Below, in pieces: positions 4,260-47,732 of a DNA stretch of 64,000 nucleotides (positions within the stretch are counted from its first letter, which is position 1; every line of letters starts with the position of its first letter). The notes below the pieces were generated by a model. The model did no database searches and was not told the DNA's origin. It saw only the letters and a program-made list of their open reading frames with translations. The position numbers and the translations under genes were made by a program. This DNA is from Phytoseiulus persimilis (lineage: Eukaryota; Arthropoda; Arachnida; Mesostigmata; Phytoseiidae): assembly GCA_037576195.1 (NCBI GenBank), contig CM075101.1, positions 47,554,001 through 47,618,000 of the forward strand, in the 5' to 3' direction.

Positions 4260-4265
4260 TTTATT
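4260..4265 (-). terminator. candidate poly(A) signal of TRIM71/LIN-41
   Basis: AATAAA on the minus strand, the first one met downstream of the stop codon. Further copies lie at 4081-4076 and 3847-3842. Confidence 0.45.
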
Positions 4266-5652
4266 CATTCTTTCCATTCGATTCGATGATGCGTTCACAG
4301 TTCGTCGTTCGTCTTCTCAGGTGACGACTGCCGACGAATATATTATCAGATATTGATACGTGGAGTACTAAAGTGAACATCGAGGAGACTGGAGCTTCGA
4401 TCTAGAGTCCGAGTTACTCAGGACAGTTTTAGAAATATGCATTCTTGTTTCAAGAAGTCTTTCGTGCTCTTTCATTAACCACCATAGCAATGGTGGAAGG
4501 ACAGAATTTCGCTTGTTTTCGCCTTGACATTTCATGCCGATGCCAAACTTTCAGTAAAATATCTCTTGTTGCGAAGCGTTATCTCGATATACCTCTCTTA
4601 TCCTGCTTTTGTTTTTGTTTTTTTTTCACACGCAGCCATGACCACTGGAAATTCTCGACGTGAAAGAGTGTTTTCTTCATGTTCTTCACTTATTCCGTGA
4701 TTCCATGCCCGCCTCGATAATTTGGAATTCCCTAATTAGGAATCGTCGTTGGGGGCCGAAAGTTCGAAATCACGGGCGACTGCGTTTTGAGTTCGGTCGC
4801 CTTTTGTCGGGGTTCTCTAGTGAAAAGAAATAACGTGGAAACGCGCGATCACATCGGAAATCTCTCCGACTTGGTGTGATTGACTAGCTGATGCAACCAG
4901 TATCCCGAACGCAAACTCCAGACCAATACAGGTAGGATGGCGTTTCCGGTGATTCTTCTGGAATGACATAGATTTTCACTCAAAGTAGAATTTTCCCCTC
5001 GAGTCAAGTCTGAAATGCAGTCTTAACGGGAATTTCCGATAACTTTCTAAGGGATGAAAAGGAACCGCGTCAGTGTGATGGGACTATTCGGAAAAAAGTA
5101 GTCGGCTGCACTGGATCCTCCCAGACGCTTCGATTCGACGAATCCACTGACAACGTCTCAGTTTCTGGGGAAATCGAATCGAACGTCGGATGCGAAATCC
5201 GTTTCTCTGAGATTAGACACCCCTTGTGGGTGGAATTAGATAGAAATATAAATCTTTGTATCAGATGCCCTTTGAGTTTTCTCCGACGAGCTTGAGAATG
5301 GTTGTGGGAAGAGGGAGGGATTATCGGGGAAACTCTACGTGTCATTACTCCGAAAGCTTCTTGCCTGCAAGCTCAAGAGTTGACCGAAGTGCGAGTTTGG
5401 ACATCCTGCTGCAGAGACGCGTGGTTCGGCAGTGAGTGCACCAAGCTCGATTCGGTCAGCACCGAACTCCTGATCCGGATGCCACACCGGTGTTCTCTAC
5501 ACGGTTATCAAACTATCGTGGTGCATAACCCCGTATCTTCGTATATCATAGGAACGTATCGTGTATAAAGCTGACTAGCAGTAGGAATCTCTGGCAAGCA
5601 AAGTGGGAATATAGGAACTAGTGGACCGGGAAAATGGGAAATATTTTGATGA

Positions 5653-5675
5653 TGAGGTAGCTCTTGTGTATAGTT
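5653..5675 (-). promoter_or_regulatory. let-7 microRNA target site in the LIN-41 3' UTR
   Basis: Read on the minus strand the site ends in CTACCTCA (5660-5653), a perfect eight-base match to let-7 positions 1-8. It starts with AACTATACA (5675-5667), complementary to let-7 positions 14-22. Six target bases (5666-5661) face five let-7 bases in the middle, giving a central internal loop. The site is about 740-760 nt after the TRIM71/LIN-41 stop, and no poly(A) signal lies between. lin-41 is the classic let-7 target in nematodes and vertebrates, so position, strand and pairing agree with known biology. Binding itself is inferred. Confidence 0.85.
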
Positions 5676-6410
5676 TCGATCAGATCGTTGTCATGCAAGA
5701 CCTGACTGCTTCAACATGGAACGGAGTCCAGTCAAGAGCATTCTTTGGTATTTGCTGCAATACTTCAGTCTCGGTTTCGGAGATAGAAGTCAACATACAG
5801 TACAATAATACATACGTACATACTTACAGACGTACAAGTTTCATCGATGGAGTCGGAGGGGACCTCTTTGAAACCAATACACTTTTTGTGTCTCGTGAAC
5901 ATGAATTCGAATTTTGGACTCGCTTGGAGGTCCTCTCTCCGATTTCGTACCTAGAGCATCTTCGCTCACCACCCAGCTGGAGTGCCGGTGGTAACTTTTT
6001 GAGATTTCGAGACAGTGTCTCGCTATCTAATAGGAACTTCAGTTCATAGGAACTTTTACCGGATACGGTTTTGCACTGAAAGGTCCGGGACCTTTCGAGC
6101 CTTGGTGGTCGCCGTTGTTTTGTCTCTCGACTCCGACTAGAGATCACGCCTTTAGATGTAGTGCTCATAACTGTTGCTCTCCGTTCGCTCTGGTTCTCGA
6201 GTGAGTTATCCTCTTCCAACTGTGCATACCTTTTAGGTAGATATAAGTTCTTGTCTCGGTCTCGTTGCCCTTGTCTGGTAGGAGTGTTCATACCTGGCTG
6301 GAGTCTCGCTGGCTACTTCCAGGAAACCTGCGAGTTCTGTCGTTGGTCGATGATAGTTGTTGAAGGTGAAGCGGTTTCGGGAATATGCTGCAGCTGACGT
6401 CCAGGCTTTC

Positions 6411-9400
6411 TCAGAAGATCTGGACGCGGTGGTTCCCGAAATCGACGACAACTATTCTTCCCTCAGGTGAGATGGCAACACCCGCAGGCCGATCCATTTG
6501 ACCAGGCTCTACGCCGGGCTCACCGAAAGAACACAAAAACGTCCCGTCGGGACGGAAAACCTGGACTCGATGATTCCGCGAATCCGATACTATGATGTGA
6601 CCCTCGGAATCCACCGCGACTCCCTGGGGTCGGGTGAATTCTCCGTTGCCGTTCCCTTCGTGTCCGAGGAATTGGGCGCTGTGGAAGTCGCTGCGGATCA
6701 CCACGATCCGATGATTGTTGAAATCTGTCACCACCATGTTGCCTGAGGGCGAACAAAAGTTTTCGTCAATATTTCGAGCGCGATATTTGAGCGGAAGCAA
6801 GGGAAGTCGTTCAAGTGCGAAATGGAGAAGCGAAGAAAAGTTGATTGGTTCGAAGGCTCGTCATTCATGGACAAAACCTGTCGTCCGTCTTTGGCTTGAC
6901 CTTCGGCGGAGGCGCTACGAAACTATTTTGTTGTGGGACGCTTTTCAACGAGTTCCTCCAGAATGAGACTGGCGGATTTTTTCCCTCAGTGTTGTTCGCT
7001 AGCTCATGGAAAGTTTCTCTCGGTTCGTTTACGATAACCGCGACCAAGTGCGAGGAAAAAACCCGACGAAATTCCATTTCTGGAAACACTTCTGTGAGAT
7101 GAACGGAAAACATTCATGGGTGAGCATGTTCTTCACGTCAGTGTTTGCGTTTTCCAGAAGATCCCTCGGCGACATTCACCGAGGCGTTGAAGTACAAACT
7201 CTTTAATTGGTTTTTGGTTCTTGAGAGTAGCCGCTGTCGCGCGCCAACTCTTGAGTTCCGCGGGCGGAGCGGGCATTTATCTGATCGCTCGTTCTTCTCA
7301 TAGACTCAGTTTCTCCTCTGTTCTTGTTCCAACGGCATGGATTTGCGTAGCCTCAACCAACCGTTCATTTCAACAAAAGGAGAGCAACTTCGCCCTTCCA
7401 GCGGCCCTCGGACACCTTTAAAAGCCGTCCTCAGCGGTGACGCAGCCGCGTGAATTCCGCTCGGTTGAATCAGAGCGTGAAATCAGTCCACAGCTGAAAA
7501 CGACGAGGGCGTGTTCATGAATGTTTCACGTTCACGGTGACCTGTGTACGCGCCTAGTGGAGCTCACGAGCATTACGGCGACTCGCCGGCCGCCGATCGG
7601 GGGCCGATCCCCCTCGGTGCGCTCAGAGCAACGTTTTCGAATCACCGAACGATGTTCCCGTGGGAACTGAGCTGAAGTCGGAGGTCAGGAGTCGAACTGG
7701 TCTTGGCAAATTGTCATCAACATGTGCTCGGAGTCATGTGTCCGTTCGCGCCTTGCTTCAGGCAGCCTTGTCGACATTTCTGGCTCGTTCAGCGAGACAA
7801 GCCATCCCGACAGAAGGCAAATTAGACCACAACCAGTCTCGATGGAACCTTCTAACGGCAGGGCGTCCACTCATGATCCAGCCAGTAGATTCGAACGAGC
7901 GCAAATACATATTCCATGACACGAACGATGTTGGGATTCTCCACGCTCGTTCCGACAATTGTTGCGGTCAACGTGGTCGATCGAGAGAAGGAACCTCGAG
8001 GATCGGGCCCATGGCGCCACGAACGAACGCGCCGGAGCTCTTCTCTCCAGGAGGGAGCTCTCTTGCGTAGCAACGCGAAATAGGGATCCCGATTTGGTGA
8101 GAAATCATAATTGGGAGTTTTTAGTGACCCTCGGGATATTTTCCGACGAAAGTTTTCCTACTCACTCAAAACGTCCAATATTGCGACAACTCGGCCGATC
8201 TTCAAAACTCGAAGGGTCCGAGCTAACAGATCCGGAGCGGACTTCTCGATTCACGGAATGGTTGAGTGCTCACCTTGATGGTCGAACGCCACTCCTCGTG
8301 GAGAATCGAACTGCTTCCATAGAGCGCCTTCGAAACCGTATTTGTTCAGAAAGACACCATCCGGACTGAAGAGCTGAACCCGATGATTTCGAGTGTCAGA
8401 CACCAAAATGTTGTTGTCGGAGTTCACAGCCACGTCCCACGGGTAATTGAATTGACCAATTTTCGACCCTCGCTCACCGAACTTCAGGATGAACTCGCCG
8501 CGGCCGCTGAACACCTGGAATCGTCGACTTGTGAATTCGAAACGATAATCGGAGCTGAGCAACCGGCGAAGAATGATTCGGAATGGTTTCGATATGCGAC
8601 TCGGATCAGCTCCTATCCCCCGAAGCCGACGTTTCCCTCTTCCGCGTCGGCCACTCGCTACAAACCTGTATGCGGTGGTTGTCTTTGTCTGCGACGATTA
8701 TCCGTCCCGAAGAGTCCATCGCAACGCCTGCCGGACGATCGAACTGTCCCGGTTGCGATCCAGCTGAGCCGAAACTCGTGTGGAATGTTCCATCAGGATT
8801 GAAGATCTGAGTTTTTGAGACCGAGATTAGTCCAGATGTCTCGCTGTCCCAACGGATCCGGCGGAAAATCGAGGGAGCATCGCGAGCGGCCGCCGGGCGC
8901 TCTCACCTGAATCCGGTTGTTGGAGCGATCCGCGACCACTACCCGGCCGGCCTGATCGACGCAGACACCCCAGGGTCTGCAGAGGTCGCCTTCGCGCACG
9001 CCCTCGCCTCCGAACACAACTGACGGCTGCTCGTTGGGAAGATTCTCATAGAATCGGCCCAATCGAACGTTGATCTTGTACGGGGACGAGGCTACGGCCG
9101 CTCCTCTCAGGGTGAGGCTGATTTCGTGAACTCCCTCTGTGCAGGGCCGGTAAGAGAACGAATAGCTGCCGTCGCGATGATCGGTCGTGTCGACTTTTTG
9201 CATGAAACCCTGAGGCGTTGTGATGCTGACGGTGAAGTGTTCTCCTCCGACCATCGTCTTCTCGTTCAGGTGGTTGTGAGCCTCAACTTTGAAAGATGCG
9301 CTCTGAAAAATCGAGCTCTCAATATGGGAACGGCTTCCACGCGATGCCTCGCTCAGAGTTTCCCGACAGAGCGTCCGACGGGGAGTCCATTTAGTTCAGG

Positions 9401-11032
9401 CGTACCTGGCCAACGACCGCGCCTTTCAGGGCCTCTCCAAAGACCTTACAGTACATGGGAAAACTCGCTGTTGAGATGTATCCCAGGTTGTTTAGGAGCG
9501 GGATGTCGGCGATTGTGAAGTCTATGCGATCATCCTCGTACGGAGTGGACCAAACTGCGCGAGAGAAGCACCGTTAATTTTCAACCGTCCACCGGCGAGG
9601 GCGGTCATGTGGAACCAGGCCTCCAAATTGAGTTTGTTTCCACTTTCCCTCGCGGCGGAGAGCGGCCACAGGAACGCGGCTGACGCGCTGGGCCAGAGCT
9701 CGAGGACGACGAACACCGATAGAATCCGCGCGAGCGGAATGAAACAGAAAGGTGAGTCTGAGCGGAGAGCGATAATTAACTCACCCGCGCGAACCGGACT
9801 AATCGGTAGAACTTTCTTGGCCTTGATGAAGTCGAGGTCGTTCGCCGAATTCAGGAAGTCACGAAGTGCGCGCGCGTGCCCGTTCAGCTCTCGGGTCGCT
9901 TTGTCTATCTGATCCACCTGGGCCTTCAGGAGGTTACCCTTAAGAAGACGGATCGTTTCAACTTTCGACAGCAGCTCCTTCTCGCGTTCTTCCAACGAGG
10001 ATAATTGTCTGTGAAAGTATGAAATCACTCGTAACAGATTCATGGCGTCGCCTACTTTGCGCCATCCCCGGAGTTCGGACGCATGCATTCAGACACTTGT
10101 TGAGAGTATCGAAAATCGGCAACACACGGTTCAGGCCCTGGACTGGGCTCATCAACTCACCTCCGGATCGCGTTTCGTATCTGTGCAGCGACGTCATGCG
10201 TTTTCTGCTCGATTCGTTTCGCCATGCTTTGATTGTTGATCAGACCCTCTTGTAGTACTTTGAGTTTTGACTCGGTATCCTTCAGCGAGCGCTCGATGTA
10301 ACTCCTGCCGCTGTCGATCGCGTCGCGAATGTGCTGAAGACTGTGGCCCTTGTGCACCCCCGTGCATTTCCCGCAGAGAGGCTTCTCGCACGTATCGCAG
10401 TAAACGTACAACGCCTCGTTGTGCTCGGCACAGCTCCTCGGTATGTAGTGCTTCAGTTCCTGGAATTGCACCAGAAACATTTTGGAATCCGCACCGTTGT
10501 TTTCGGCACTCTCCGCGGCGGTCCGTTGGGCAAGGGCTCCCGGGAAAAAGTTCGATGGGCTTACCAACGAAGGGGACGGCGCGAAGCGCACGATCGTGTG
10601 ATCTCGGGTCAGCCTGACTCTTTGGTGAGCGTTGATGCAGTTCTCACAGAGCAGCTCGTTGTTGCAGTCTCGGCAGCGGCCTTTCGCGGGATTCCGGTCG
10701 TCGCAAGATGAGCAGATGGGCAGGACATCAAGAAAACGCACGGAGCCAAGATTCAAACCCGACAAGTCGAGTTTGTTGCACTGAGGACATTGGTAAGGAC
10801 CCGACTCCTGGAGACATTTGGTGCAGACCGTGTGCGAGCACGGGAACACCTTGGGCAGTCCGCCGTTGCTGTCGAAGCACGATGAGCACGTCAAGAAACT
10901 GGTGCCGACCCGTAGCGGGTGCAGCGGTCCGAGTTTCTGTGACGGCAGTTGCATCGGTAACGACATGCCGCACGCGCTGGAACTGAAAGCACGACGATCA
11001 TGACCGGCTACCGAGAGTCTGGCTCCAGACAT
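6411..11032 (-). CDS. lin-41: TRIM71/LIN-41 E3 ligase and RNA-binding TRIM-NHL protein
   Basis: Seven coding exons join in frame with consensus GT-AG sites: 11032-10161, 10008-9785, 9554-9406, 9302-8907, 8806-8666, 8514-8274, 6742-6411; 784 aa. Order of domains: RING at about 49-85 (C49, C52, C65, H67, C70, C73, C82, C85), two B-boxes at about 107-145 and 201-230, coiled coil to about 365, filamin-type repeat ending in SSPYKINV, then six NHL repeats running to the C-terminus. Repeats carry [23 protein letters not shown] and [14 protein letters not shown], and the protein stops right after the last one, as vertebrate TRIM71 does. Family members repress mRNAs in the cytoplasm and control developmental timing and stemness. 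The last intron is 1531 bp, the others 100-230 bp. Met1 is the furthest upstream start; Met23 is possible because an acceptor-like TTTCAG lies between. Drosophila wech is the likely fly relative. Confidence 0.95.
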
Positions 11033-16812: not shown

Positions 16813-17666
16813 ATGAGTCGGCCAGAGTTTGGCCCGTGCGGGGGCGATGAGGAGTCTTTGTCAGAGGAAGGGGAAAACTCAGCCTTCCGACTGGAGCTCC
16901 GGGCTGGGTAAACCTGGACTGCCTAGAGAAGGGACACTACTGAAGCTCGCGGATCCCATCGTGAAATACGCGCGGCCTTCGGAAGCCTCATACCCCCTCT
17001 GGTCAGGTCGACTCTGCTGAGGCTTTCTCGCGACCTGCAGTGCTCAAGACTATGTGTAGGAGATAAAGGCGTGCCGAATACCTACAAGGCGTATGAGGGC
17101 TAGGGAACGGGTGCTCAGTAACAGTCACCAATCCGGATTTGGCACTCGCTAATGCACCCCTGCTTTTGCAACTCAGCGAAGGGAATCAAGATCGACCGCA
17201 TCAGACAGTCATGATGAGCTGTTCGTCTTCTGCCTGAGAACAAGATGAAATACTGCGTACCACAGAAATAGATTATGAAACATCTCAGGCACAAAACTTT
17301 GGTGTAGCGATATCACGGATGGCAGGCGCGGGGAAGCACGGTGATATCGAGCGAGTCGGATTCAGTCTGAACATCACCTCGTACAGTGCAGGGAATTCCA
17401 GTCGAGGTACTTTGAAGCCAGCAGGCCGCCTGTCTTGCAGCCACATCTGCCGGAAGGCTACGTGCTGGTGCCAAATGTAACAGAGCGCATTCCGAGAAAG
17501 TCTGGGGAAGTGAATTACGGAGTTGGACGGAGAACTTCATCCAGCTGTCCGCATGAGCGGAGGGCTACTTTCTATCAAGCATTTGGTGAGTCTTCCCGAA
17601 CGGACAGGAGAAGGATGATTTCCGAAATTTTTTTCAGAGACCAGCTTCCTATGTTCGCCGTTATAA
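16813..17666 (+). CDS. candidate small three-exon gene
   Basis: Exons 16813-16907, 17422-17585 and 17638-17666 join in frame to 95 aa, starting MSRPEFGPCGG and ending ETSFLCSPL before TAA. The second donor (TTTG|GTGAGT) and the last acceptor (TTTTTTTCAG) are strong; the acceptor at 17422 is weaker, and another AG lies at 17440-17441. The encoded protein has an acidic N-terminus and a basic middle, with no recognised domain. A competing reading starts at the ATG at 17553 and continues through 17638-17756 in another frame. Because the splice sites are good but homology is lacking, this is a hypothesis. Confidence 0.3.
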
Positions 17667-41753: not shown

Positions 41754-42728
41754 CTTGATCAGCGATCGTCGAACTCTAGCGATTCGCTCGTTTCAGCGAT
41801 GTCTCGTGCGTAGAACGTTGCATAGAACTCTCGCATGGTTTACTAACCAGAAAATGAACAGGCTGCCATTCTGGGCAGAGACCGCTCAGTAAAACTGCCG
41901 ACTCGGTCTCAAGCTTCGCCACCGCCTCTGTGGTTCGCTCGCTGATTGAGCTCGGAATCGGTTGGATAGACCGTCCATGGAAACACTCAGCAGATGAGAC
42001 GCAACTCCGGGTCCAAATACACCTGGAAGAGCAGGAAAATCGCTCTCTCGAAGCTTTTCGTCCGGGTGACACATTCGAAGACATGACGCCACCTACGAAG
42101 ATTTTCTTCTACAGACGGAAAGTTTTTGGTGCGAGAAGGTCAAGAGGCTTCTTGAATGTGTTATGCATCGCTCGCGTGTTACAAAAGAAACTCTTATTTT
42201 CGGATGCGCTAGAAATCCGCCCCCCCCCCCCCCCCCCTCGTCCTGGGGGAATTCCCAAGTCCGCCAGTGAAGCACGCTCGGTGCAGAGCGCACAAGCCAA
42301 ACGGTTTCCAGGCCGAGTCGGTTCGGTTCTTGAAGTTTCCGACTCTCGCATTGCGGGAAGCGATGCGGGGCTTCCGTCGGCCGGTGTAAACGCCTTCGAG
42401 CAGCACGACCTCTTTTCGTAGCATGGCTGGTCTCCGTCGCAGTGTCGTCTGCAGCGATCACTGTCCTCCCAGCCGATTCTCTCTCCTTCCCAGGACGGCC
42501 TTGACCGCCGTCGCCGACATTCAGTCCGCTCGTGAGTAAGCGCGGCGACCGTCCGTTCGCTCGTCTAGGTCTAACGTCAACGGCGGCGGCGACAACAACA
42601 GTAGCGTCGAGGAGACCGTCTGCTTCTGAGTACTGGGCTTATGGAGATTGTGAGCCGCGCGGAGACGGGCCTGGATTTGCGCTGCTATGGGCCGAGCCGG
42701 CTCAGTACGGCCCAGCTGCGTGACAACA
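41754..42728. other. upstream region of the Rho-family gene; poly(C) tract
   Basis: Probably 5' UTR and promoter of the GTPase gene at its right end. No convincing exon. An 18-C run lies at 42220-42237. Confidence 0.4.
42220..42237. repeat. poly(C) tract, 18 bp
   Basis: An uninterrupted run of 18 C on the plus strand, the longest homopolymer noticed in the window. Confidence 0.95.
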
Positions 42729-43331
42729 ATGCCGTCCGTGTCGCCGGAAAACTACAAGAAGATCGTCATAGTCGGTGATGGGAACTGTGGAAAAACGAGC
42801 TTGTTGGCCCGCTTCGTCCGCGGCGAATTCCCGCGGGACTACGTACCTACAGTGTTCGATACCGATGTGTCGTCGGTGTCCGTGGACGACAAGGATGTCT
42901 TGCTGAGCTTGTGGGACACCGCGGGCCAGGAAGCCTACGAGAGGTTACGCCCGCTGTCGTACAACGACACGGACGTCGTTATCATCGCGTACTCGGTCGC
43001 CGATCGGGACACCATCGCCAACGTTGTCGAGAAATGGTACCCTGAGATTTGCTACTACCTTCCGACGGTCCCCATCGTGCTCGTGGGCACCAAGCTCGAC
43101 TTGAGACCGCCGCTCGATGAGATGGATTTCAGCGAGCGACAGAAGTCCAAGTTCGTCAGTGTGGATGACGGCAGGAATCTGGCCGGGTACATCAAGGCGG
43201 CAGCTTTTATCGAATGCTCTGCGCTGGCGAACGTCGCTGTACATGACGTGTTCCGGAGCGCCGCGCAGCTGTCACTTCGGAAACGGAAACACCGCTCGAG
43301 GAAGAAGAAGTTCCAATGTGCTCTACTCTAG
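42729..43331 (+). CDS. divergent Rho/Rac-family small GTPase, intronless
   Basis: A single exon encodes 200 aa. The P-loop is GDGNCGKT (16-23), switch I YVPTVF with T41 at the RhoA T37 position, switch II DTAGQE with catalytic Q67, base-binding TKLDL and ECSAL. KWYPEI and GTKLDLR resemble Rac/Cdc42 more than RhoA. The C-terminus is strongly basic (RKRKHRSRKKK) and ends CALL, a CAAX box predicted to be geranylgeranylated for membrane attachment. All catalytic residues are present, so it should cycle as a switch controlling actin. It departs from Rho and Rac just after switch I (FDTDVSS where Rac has FDNYSA), which may change effector choice. The start at 42729 matches family length; an in-frame ATG at 42687 would add 14 residues. 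Having no intron is unusual here and could reflect an old retrocopy. Confidence 0.93.
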   Translation: MPSVSPENYKKIVIVGDGNCGKTSLLARFVRGEFPRDYVPTVFDTDVSSVSVDDKDVLLSLWDTAGQEAYERLRPLSYNDTDVVIIAYSVADRDTIANVVEKWYPEICYYLPTVPIVLVGTKLDLRPPLDEMDFSERQKSKFVSVDDGRNLAGYIKAAAFIECSALANVAVHDVFRSAAQLSLRKRKHRSRKKKFQCALL

Positions 43332-44935: not shown

Positions 44936-45947
44936 ATGGCTCGTGGTTTGTCAATAGTTCTGTGCTTCGCAGTTGCGGTGAGTATTTTGAATACGTTTCA
45001 CTGTTAGAATGAACGGCCAGGAATCTTGGCCCATAAATAACATTCCGATACCGCTGATATCAACAACACTCGATCTAAGGTGTCTTCATTCATGAATCGC
45101 AGACCGCCTTCGAGCTTAAAGTCGATCCCCTACCTGACCTGGATGGCCGCGGAGTAAGTTTCGAAATTTCTCCAAATGACCTAGAAGTGAATTTGACTTG
45201 GTGTGAGGTGAAATATGGGCCTTCTGGCTGCGAGTCGATGCCCTCTGTAACTGGCGGAGTCAATGTCACTTCCCTGCAACCGAACACGAAGTATAATGTC
45301 AGTGCTGAAACTTTGAAAACCAACGAAACCGAGATTCGGATCTTCAGCACAACGTATGGCAGTGAGTATGCCTCCTCAGTCCCTCCCCCTTCTCCTTGAG
45401 CAACAACTCAGAAGCTACACCGATATCCAACTTTACCGAAGGTGGTGGAATTTCAAAACGGAGTCTCCTTCTAGCGCCGACGACTCTCTTCAACATAACC
45501 GTCACGGAGGTGGACGCGTTCTGGATCGCGCTAAGTTGGACTCCAATGAATAGCTTGAAACTCAATGGGCCCCCGACTGGATACAGAATTGTTTACTGCA
45601 ACACGACGTGCGACGCGAAAGAGACGGATGAGCCCGAAGTGGTCCTGGGATCATTGAGACCCCAAACCACCTATACCATTCGTATGTGGGCCTTCAACAT
45701 CGATCACTTCCATCAGCGATTGGAGAACGATAAATACGTGACTATCATCTACGAGACGACAGCACCCGATTCGCGAACTTCGTTGATTTTCGTCATCGTG
45801 GCATCAGTTGGTGTGTTCGTCTTCGTCGCAGGGCTCATAATATACATGCGAAAGTCGAGGAGGATTCGGCGAAGAGCCCATCAGTTCAACATGGTGAAGA
45901 CTTACGACGAATCATACAGCGCGACATCTACTAGGAATAGCCTTTAG
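44936..45947 (+). CDS. short fibronectin-III-like type I membrane protein, copy A
   Basis: Exons 44936-44977, 45103-45361 and 45412-45947 encode 278 aa. Exon 1 is just the signal peptide (MARGLSIVLCFAVA). Residues about 16-100 and 120-215 look like two fibronectin type III modules: the second has IALSWTPM, GPPTGYRIVYC and TYTIRMWAFN, the usual strand B, C and F wording. N-glycosylation sites are frequent (NVT, NET, NIT, NTT). The membrane helix is at about 224-246 (LIFVIVASVGVFVFVAGLII), then a 32-residue tail beginning with a basic RKSRRIRRR. It is probably a cell-surface adhesion or receptor-type protein, with no catalytic domain. The second intron is only 50 bp. Its convergent neighbour at 47732-46351 is a clear paralogue. 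An earlier ATG at 44915 in another frame stops after 13 codons. Confidence 0.86.
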
Positions 45948-46350: not shown

Positions 46351-47732
46351 CTACAGCGAAAAGTCTTCTTCGATAAGAAGGAAATGCTTCGGGCTCGACG
46401 AGAAGAGTCTCTGCTTCAAGATGCACAAAAGAAGCCCCGAAACTAGTATCAGCACGGCGGACGCGAGCACGATCGGAACCACGAAGGAAACAGGCGCCGC
46501 TGCGGTGCGAACGATGAGAGTGTTGGCCAGCCTAGAGTTGTCGAGCACGTCTCCAAATGAGTCCACGTTGTACGGCCAGATTGTGATGTTGTAGCGCATC
46601 AAGGGCGCCAGGTCGACGAATTTTCCTCGATTTGTGGTGAAATTCAGCATGGTGCACGACTTGATGGAGAAATATTCGCAAATCACCGCGCGGTAGCCCG
46701 AGGGAGGACCGTGCAACACCTCCGGGTACTGCGGGTACCATGTGAGGTCGATGCTTCGCGAGGAGACCTTGACCGAGGAGTAGTTCACTGCGCTGAAAGG
46801 AACTGTCGAGGCCATAATGAATAAGCTGACGAGCACCGAACATGTGAGAGTGTTGTAATGGATGAGAATATTGCGACGGCAACCGAAAGGATTGCTTGGT
46901 ACTGGTATATCGAGACCACTGCTTCCCACGCACCTCCGAAGTCCGTTCTGAAAGCGATTGACTCCTGCGTCCCAGCGTCAGAGAGCGTCAGGTTGTAGTC
47001 GGTGTACGGATACAAATTCGAGAAACGCAAGTTTCCGCTGAATGTCTCGTTCGAACAAAGTTTATAAGAATCGTAGTACCCACATAACGTCCCAAGAAAT
47101 ATCTTCTCTTTGGGATCCACGTTGATCAGCACTCCTTGCCCCCCAGATCCCCTTTGGAAGAGAACGGAAACATCGAGCATGACCTGTAAGAATGGAACAA
47201 CATCACCATCATTCGGAGAGCGATTAGGTCCGTCCCTCATTATCCGTTAATAGATTCCTCCTGAACTTCCTATCCCACATTGTTCGAATTCCTCTCTCAT
47301 GGCTCTACACGTCCATCCAGCGATCTTCGGTGCGTTGCAGTTCGTGACCAATTTTCACTTTCAACCAATTCCTAGGATTTCAATCAGTGTGTTTCTTGGA
47401 TCGAGACTTTCGAGAGCCTGCGGAAATTTCGCGGAGAAAAATCGAATGCACGGATCTTGACGATCGCCGAAAGAGGCTCCCTCGCGTGGACATCATCGTG
47501 ATTCCTGCTCCGAATTCACTCAAATGTTGCAACGCGGTCTCTGGATCTCGTCACGTAATACACTCGAGATCCTCTCAAGAGCTGATAACGACAACGGGCG
47601 CTGACAGCACGGCATCATCATTTCCGAGTCATCAGATGAGGATTTCCCTAATAGAATTCGAAGTCGCAATTCATAACTCACAATGTACGGAAGAACTTGC
47701 AGAAGCACTAGCGCAGATCCAAGACGCCACAT
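46351..47732 (-). CDS. short fibronectin-III-like type I membrane protein, copy B
   Basis: Exons 47732-47682, 47183-46934 and 46802-46351 encode 250 aa. Exon 1 holds the signal peptide (MWRLGSALVLLQVLPYI). Residues about 25-100 form a first, weakly conserved module (TDYNLTL). Residues about 105-200 form a fibronectin-III-like module with IDLTWYPQ, GPPSGYRAVIC and YNITIWPYN. The membrane helix is at about 206-228 (SFVVPIVLASAVLILVSGLL), then a short tail of about 20 residues ending IEEDFSL. Intron phases (0 and 1), exon roles and the GPPxGYRxVxC wording match copy A, so the pair arose by duplication with inversion. The first intron is about 500 bp and the first exon is chosen mainly by phase and signal peptide. 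Confidence 0.84.

Follow-up and report, generated by a model that had tools for sequence, protein, structure and literature searches.

The LIN-41/TRIM71 gene and the sequence downstream of it

The window, that is, the whole 64-kb stretch of Phytoseiulus persimilis DNA that was analysed (GC 51.7%), carries on its minus strand a seven-exon gene of the LIN-41/TRIM71 type. The gene is followed by a predicted 3' untranslated region (UTR) that contains a candidate let-7 target site. The features of the locus are, in the direction of transcription:

10161..10966 (-): LIN-41/TRIM71 exon 1, with a RING-like stretch and the B-boxes; as modelled, start codon uncertain
9785..10008 (-): exon 2, lying between the B-boxes and the filamin domain, with a putative coiled coil placed by position; exon model
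9406..9554 (-): exon 3, reaching the beginning of the filamin domain; exon model and Pfam
8907..9302 (-): exon 4, filamin domain and start of the NHL propeller; exon model and Pfam
8666..8806 (-): exon 5, NHL; exon model and Pfam
8274..8514 (-): exon 6, NHL; exon model and Pfam
6411..6742 (-): exon 7, with the final NHL repeats and the TGA stop (6413-6411); exon model and Pfam
4260..6410 (-): predicted 3' UTR; begins just past the stop and is drawn as far as the first AATAAA (4265-4260), taken as its putative 3' end
5653..5675 (-): candidate let-7 target site AACTATACACAAGAGCTACCTCA; sequence, energy and pattern searches
5667..5675 (-): 3' supplementary part AACTATACA, which pairs with let-7 nt 14-22
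5653..5660 (-): seed part CTACCTCA, paired with let-7 nt 2-8, with an A facing nt 1

The gene model has six GT-AG introns and encodes 762 amino acids without an internal stop; an alternative in-frame ATG lies upstream of the modelled start, at 11032. Pfam domains that score above their cut-offs follow one another in the order zf-B_box (two stretches), Filamin, and NHL (six stretches, C-terminal), and a zf-RING_5 match at residues 27-65 (E 3e-05) reaches 24.3 bits against a cut-off of 27.9. The best matches among solved structures are four TRIM71 sequences (458-537 bits), among them those of zebrafish and human. Other TRIM-NHL proteins with solved structures score lower: Thin (235 bits), TRIM2 (189), TRIM3 (186), Brat (156), and Mei-P26 (107). 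Closeness to TRIM71 was judged on solved structures only, and Drosophila wech is absent among the matches listed. An initial sequence-only reading of this DNA had called the protein TRIM71/LIN-41. The domain order and the top-ranking solved structures bear this out, and on these features the gene upstream of the site is TRIM71/LIN-41. A search of the genome with the LIN-41 protein returned 21 matches, seven of which are its own exons; identity does not exceed 48% in the remaining 14, and LIN-41 is therefore probably a single-copy gene. Judged by eye, the open reading frames at 45396-45947 (+), 46351-46929 (-) and 46785-47240 (-) are fibronectin-type-III-like and membrane-anchor-like, and that at 42687-43331 (+) is Rho-family GTPase-like.

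The candidate site lies on the sense (minus) strand of the gene, 735 nt from the stop, in agreement with the strand and the distance of about 750 nt given in the sequence-only reading. No AATAAA or ATTAAA is present between the LIN-41 stop and 4265, and the 12 poly(A) hexamers scanned have no occurrence that starts between 6410 and 4678. The absence of an intervening poly(A) signal had been put forward as an argument for a working site. It is correct that no AATAAA or ATTAAA precedes the site, but few are expected by chance: 0.44 between the stop and the site (P(none) 0.65), and 1.67 between the stop and 4266 (P(none) 0.20). Their absence is therefore weak support.

Pairing with let-7 and rarity of the match

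Read on the minus strand from 5675 to 5653, the site consists of AACTATACA-CAAGAG-CTACCTCA. Compared with canonical let-7, eight of its bases match the 5' end of the microRNA and nine more match nt 14-22; complementarity to let-7 nt 2-8 is perfect at 5653..5660. The two paired parts of the predicted duplex are separated by an internal loop of 5 x 6, or of 4 x 5 if the U9-G pair of the folding program is counted. Nine additional pairs to the 3' end of let-7 and an internal loop between the paired parts are thus present, as first described. The eight-base seed pairing claimed alongside them holds for canonical let-7, but not for the genome's own let-7, which would start with C instead of U; the seed therefore comprises seven pairs (nt 2-8) and a target A opposite nt 1 (t1 A), not eight pairs. 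The predicted duplex energy is -21.9 kcal/mol with the genome's own let-7 and -22.6 kcal/mol with canonical let-7.

The seed part, CTACCTCA, has a single copy on the two strands of the window, that of the site, and the shorter words CTACCTC and TACCTC occur three and 18 times, respectively. Among the 18 TACCTC occurrences, the site at 5653..5675 has the lowest predicted energy, followed by one at 17409 on the minus strand (-21.2). In the predicted UTR, 79% of the 8-mers are less accessible than the seed, although its unpaired probability is only 0.23. No further TACCTC is found in the predicted UTR (4260..6410). It contains two more CTACCT words, at 6240 and 4935, with predicted energies of -12.1 and -11.1 kcal/mol; these were rejected as let-7 sites, being equalled in 446 and 509 of 2000 simulated UTRs, respectively. 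The predicted UTR also lacks a seed match to miR-125 or miR-100, and an exact copy of the Pumilio motif, TGTANATA.

The combination of the two paired parts is rare. Allowing up to three mismatches, the bipartite pattern has one match in the 64 kb of the window; shuffled sequences give a mean of 0.10, and a match in 10 of 100 shuffles. In the genome (181 Mb) a single exact match was found, against about 0.0019 expected under a dinucleotide model with the window as its training sequence. Genome-wide, no match is listed at one mismatch and at least seven are found at two mismatches, and a reversed control pattern has at least 31 matches at up to two mismatches, all these genome-wide counts being lower bounds. 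Within the predicted UTR, the dinucleotide model gives about 8e-8 exact matches over seven spacings. The bipartite match at 5653..5675 is a non-chance match. Energy alone is a weaker test than the pattern match: a seed site at least equally stable turned up in 13 of the 3000 UTRs simulated, and shuffling the 3' part of let-7 gave equally good pairing with the site in 75 of 2000 cases.

A looser pattern (7+N3-9+7) has three matches in the genome and its reversed control has 13, so that the looser pattern as such is not in excess. One of the three is the 5653..5675 site. Another is the let-7 gene itself, read in antisense, and was discarded as a target site. The third, at C3:36052965-36052982, was likewise set aside: it lacks the outer AA, and G replaces the t1 A. 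A reverse-transcriptase-like open reading frame, judged by eye, is located about 3.5 kb from this third match.

The let-7 gene and its microRNA neighbours

One let-7 gene was found in the genome, at C2:14174830-14174900. It scores 43.9 bits, where Rfam sets the gathering score at 53.5; it folds into a strong hairpin (z -5.05), and the 17-base let-7 core has a single occurrence in the genome. The mature sequence, CGAGGUAGUAGGUUGUAUAGUU (L007:137-158; C2:14174836-14174857), has C in place of U at nt 1 and would start CGAGGUAG; its other bases are canonical, 21 of 22 in all, by the canonical sequence given in PMC1976426. The C at nt 1 is the most unusual feature of the analysis. It may be an assembly error or a variant at this position, in which case mature let-7 would start UGAGGUAG. 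In sections of one paper let-7 is called perfectly conserved from worm to human (PMC6435043). Another lists nt 1 as one of the positions that vary within the let-7 family, with A in five let-7d members, and its account of these positions makes no mention of C at nt 1 (PMC1976426). If real, the C might lower Argonaute loading or shift the 5' end of the microRNA.

Two further sequences flank let-7:

L006:9286-9362: miR-100 hairpin, about 0.5 kb upstream of let-7; mir-10 model and fold
L007:567-588: miR-125-like sequence, about 0.4 kb downstream of let-7; sequence and position

Each shares 19 of 22 bases with known miR-100 and miR-125, respectively. The miR-100 hairpin reaches 34.3 bits with the mir-10 model (gathering score 47.5) and has a z of -4.11. 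The fold of the miR-125-like sequence is unremarkable (z -1.33; 17 of 200 shuffles equally good), and the Rfam lin-4 model has no match in the genome (E up to 0.001) and none in L007 (E up to 1). The order of the known cluster, as described in part of PMC4987109, is mir-100/let-7/mir-125, and the order here is identical, within about 1 kb. The genome in which the site lies also has the upstream part of the circuit, let-7 being accompanied there by miR-100 and a miR-125-like sequence.

A cold-shock exon (L022; C41:127721-127807), which seems to end at a splice donor, carries a LIN-28-like motif. Among solved structures, other cold-shock proteins match it best, with LIN28B in 16th place.

The site as a probable part of the let-7/lin-41 switch

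Drosophila wech (dappled) is an arthropod relative of LIN-41 with reported let-7 sites. It is not known to have a RING, whereas the LIN-41 described here has a RING-like match, below the cut-off (24.3 versus 27.9 bits). Vertebrate TRIM71 resembles the present case in that the gene is orthologous and the microRNA is the same. It also carries miR-125 sites, in contrast to the predicted UTR of P. persimilis with its lack of a miR-125 seed match.

The closest comparison, drawn from the parts of the cited papers that describe them, is with C. elegans. Its lin-41 3' UTR contains let-7 complementary sites in which stems flank an internal loop, and deletion of the UTR segment with both sites leads to let-7 mutant phenotypes (PMC6435043; PMC11514024). 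Repression of lin-41 by let-7 is established in the worm (PMC6435043), and Trim71 has been called a conserved let-7 target in animals (PMC7906602). By these descriptions the two cases are alike in having a let-7 site in the lin-41 3' UTR with two stems around a loop. They differ in that the worm has two sites (PMC6435043) and only one full site is found here. The worm duplex described in PMC11514024 has a loop of 2 x 3 and one stem with a G-U pair, whereas the seed of the present site pairs throughout, a t1 A is present, and the loop measures 5 x 6 (4 x 5 with the U9-G pair).

We consider it very likely that let-7 acts at 5653..5675, in the 3' UTR of the LIN-41/TRIM71 mRNA, by ordinary repression, because gene identity, strand, distance, the presence of the cognate let-7, and the genome-wide rarity of the pattern all fit. 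Other readings of the same sequence are possible. The site could be a true ancestral let-7 site that is mostly skipped through the use of an upstream 3' end, which would make regulation dependent on isoform or stage. Poly(A) signals can be non-canonical and 735 nt of UTR precede the site, but none of the 12 hexamers scanned begins in the stretch from 6410 to 4678 and the first AATAAA is at 4265. The preservation of 16 pairs and the t1 A would also argue for present selection, and we regard such skipping as unlikely. A chance match in intergenic or UTR sequence, devoid of any regulatory role, would be consistent with the energy-only tests, which are not extreme (13 of 3000; 75 of 2000). Such an origin is hard to reconcile with an exact 9+8 pattern that was found once in 181 Mb, downstream of the one gene at which it had been predicted beforehand, and of which about 8e-8 copies are expected in the predicted UTR over seven spacings; we hold it to be very improbable.

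The least probable reading, to which we attach hardly any weight, is that lin-41 is not the transcript regulated, the site belonging instead to an unannotated minus-strand RNA downstream of it. A 155-aa open reading frame on the minus strand at 6291-5824 could belong to such an RNA, but none of its Pfam matches reaches the cut-off (12.8 bits at best, versus 21), and let-7 and lin-41 are the specific pair to be expected.

If the site does work in lin-41, its action can be envisaged as follows. The lin-41 transcript would extend through the site at 5653, where a let-7-Argonaute complex would recognise the seed match together with its flanking A. The nine pairs at the 3' end of let-7 would add stability and specificity for this family member. 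A rise of let-7 late in development would then lower the production of LIN-41. The chances appear evenly balanced that this species provides a natural example of a target A retained despite being unable to pair with the C at let-7 nt 1. Retention of a t1 A without pairing is as expected if Argonaute itself reads the A, provided that mature let-7 starts with C.

Our non-exhaustive search of the literature on let-7, lin-41 and mites and on Phytoseiidae found no published report of the site. Control of lin-41 by let-7 is known in C. elegans and is thought to be conserved; the site is therefore a new example of regulation of a known kind, expected but well supported. It suggests that the let-7/lin-41 developmental-timing switch very probably operates in Phytoseiulus persimilis, and its extension to this species is supported by one short site that can be tested. 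The odd first base of let-7 would make the same species a natural test of how Argonaute handles nt 1 and the base opposite it.
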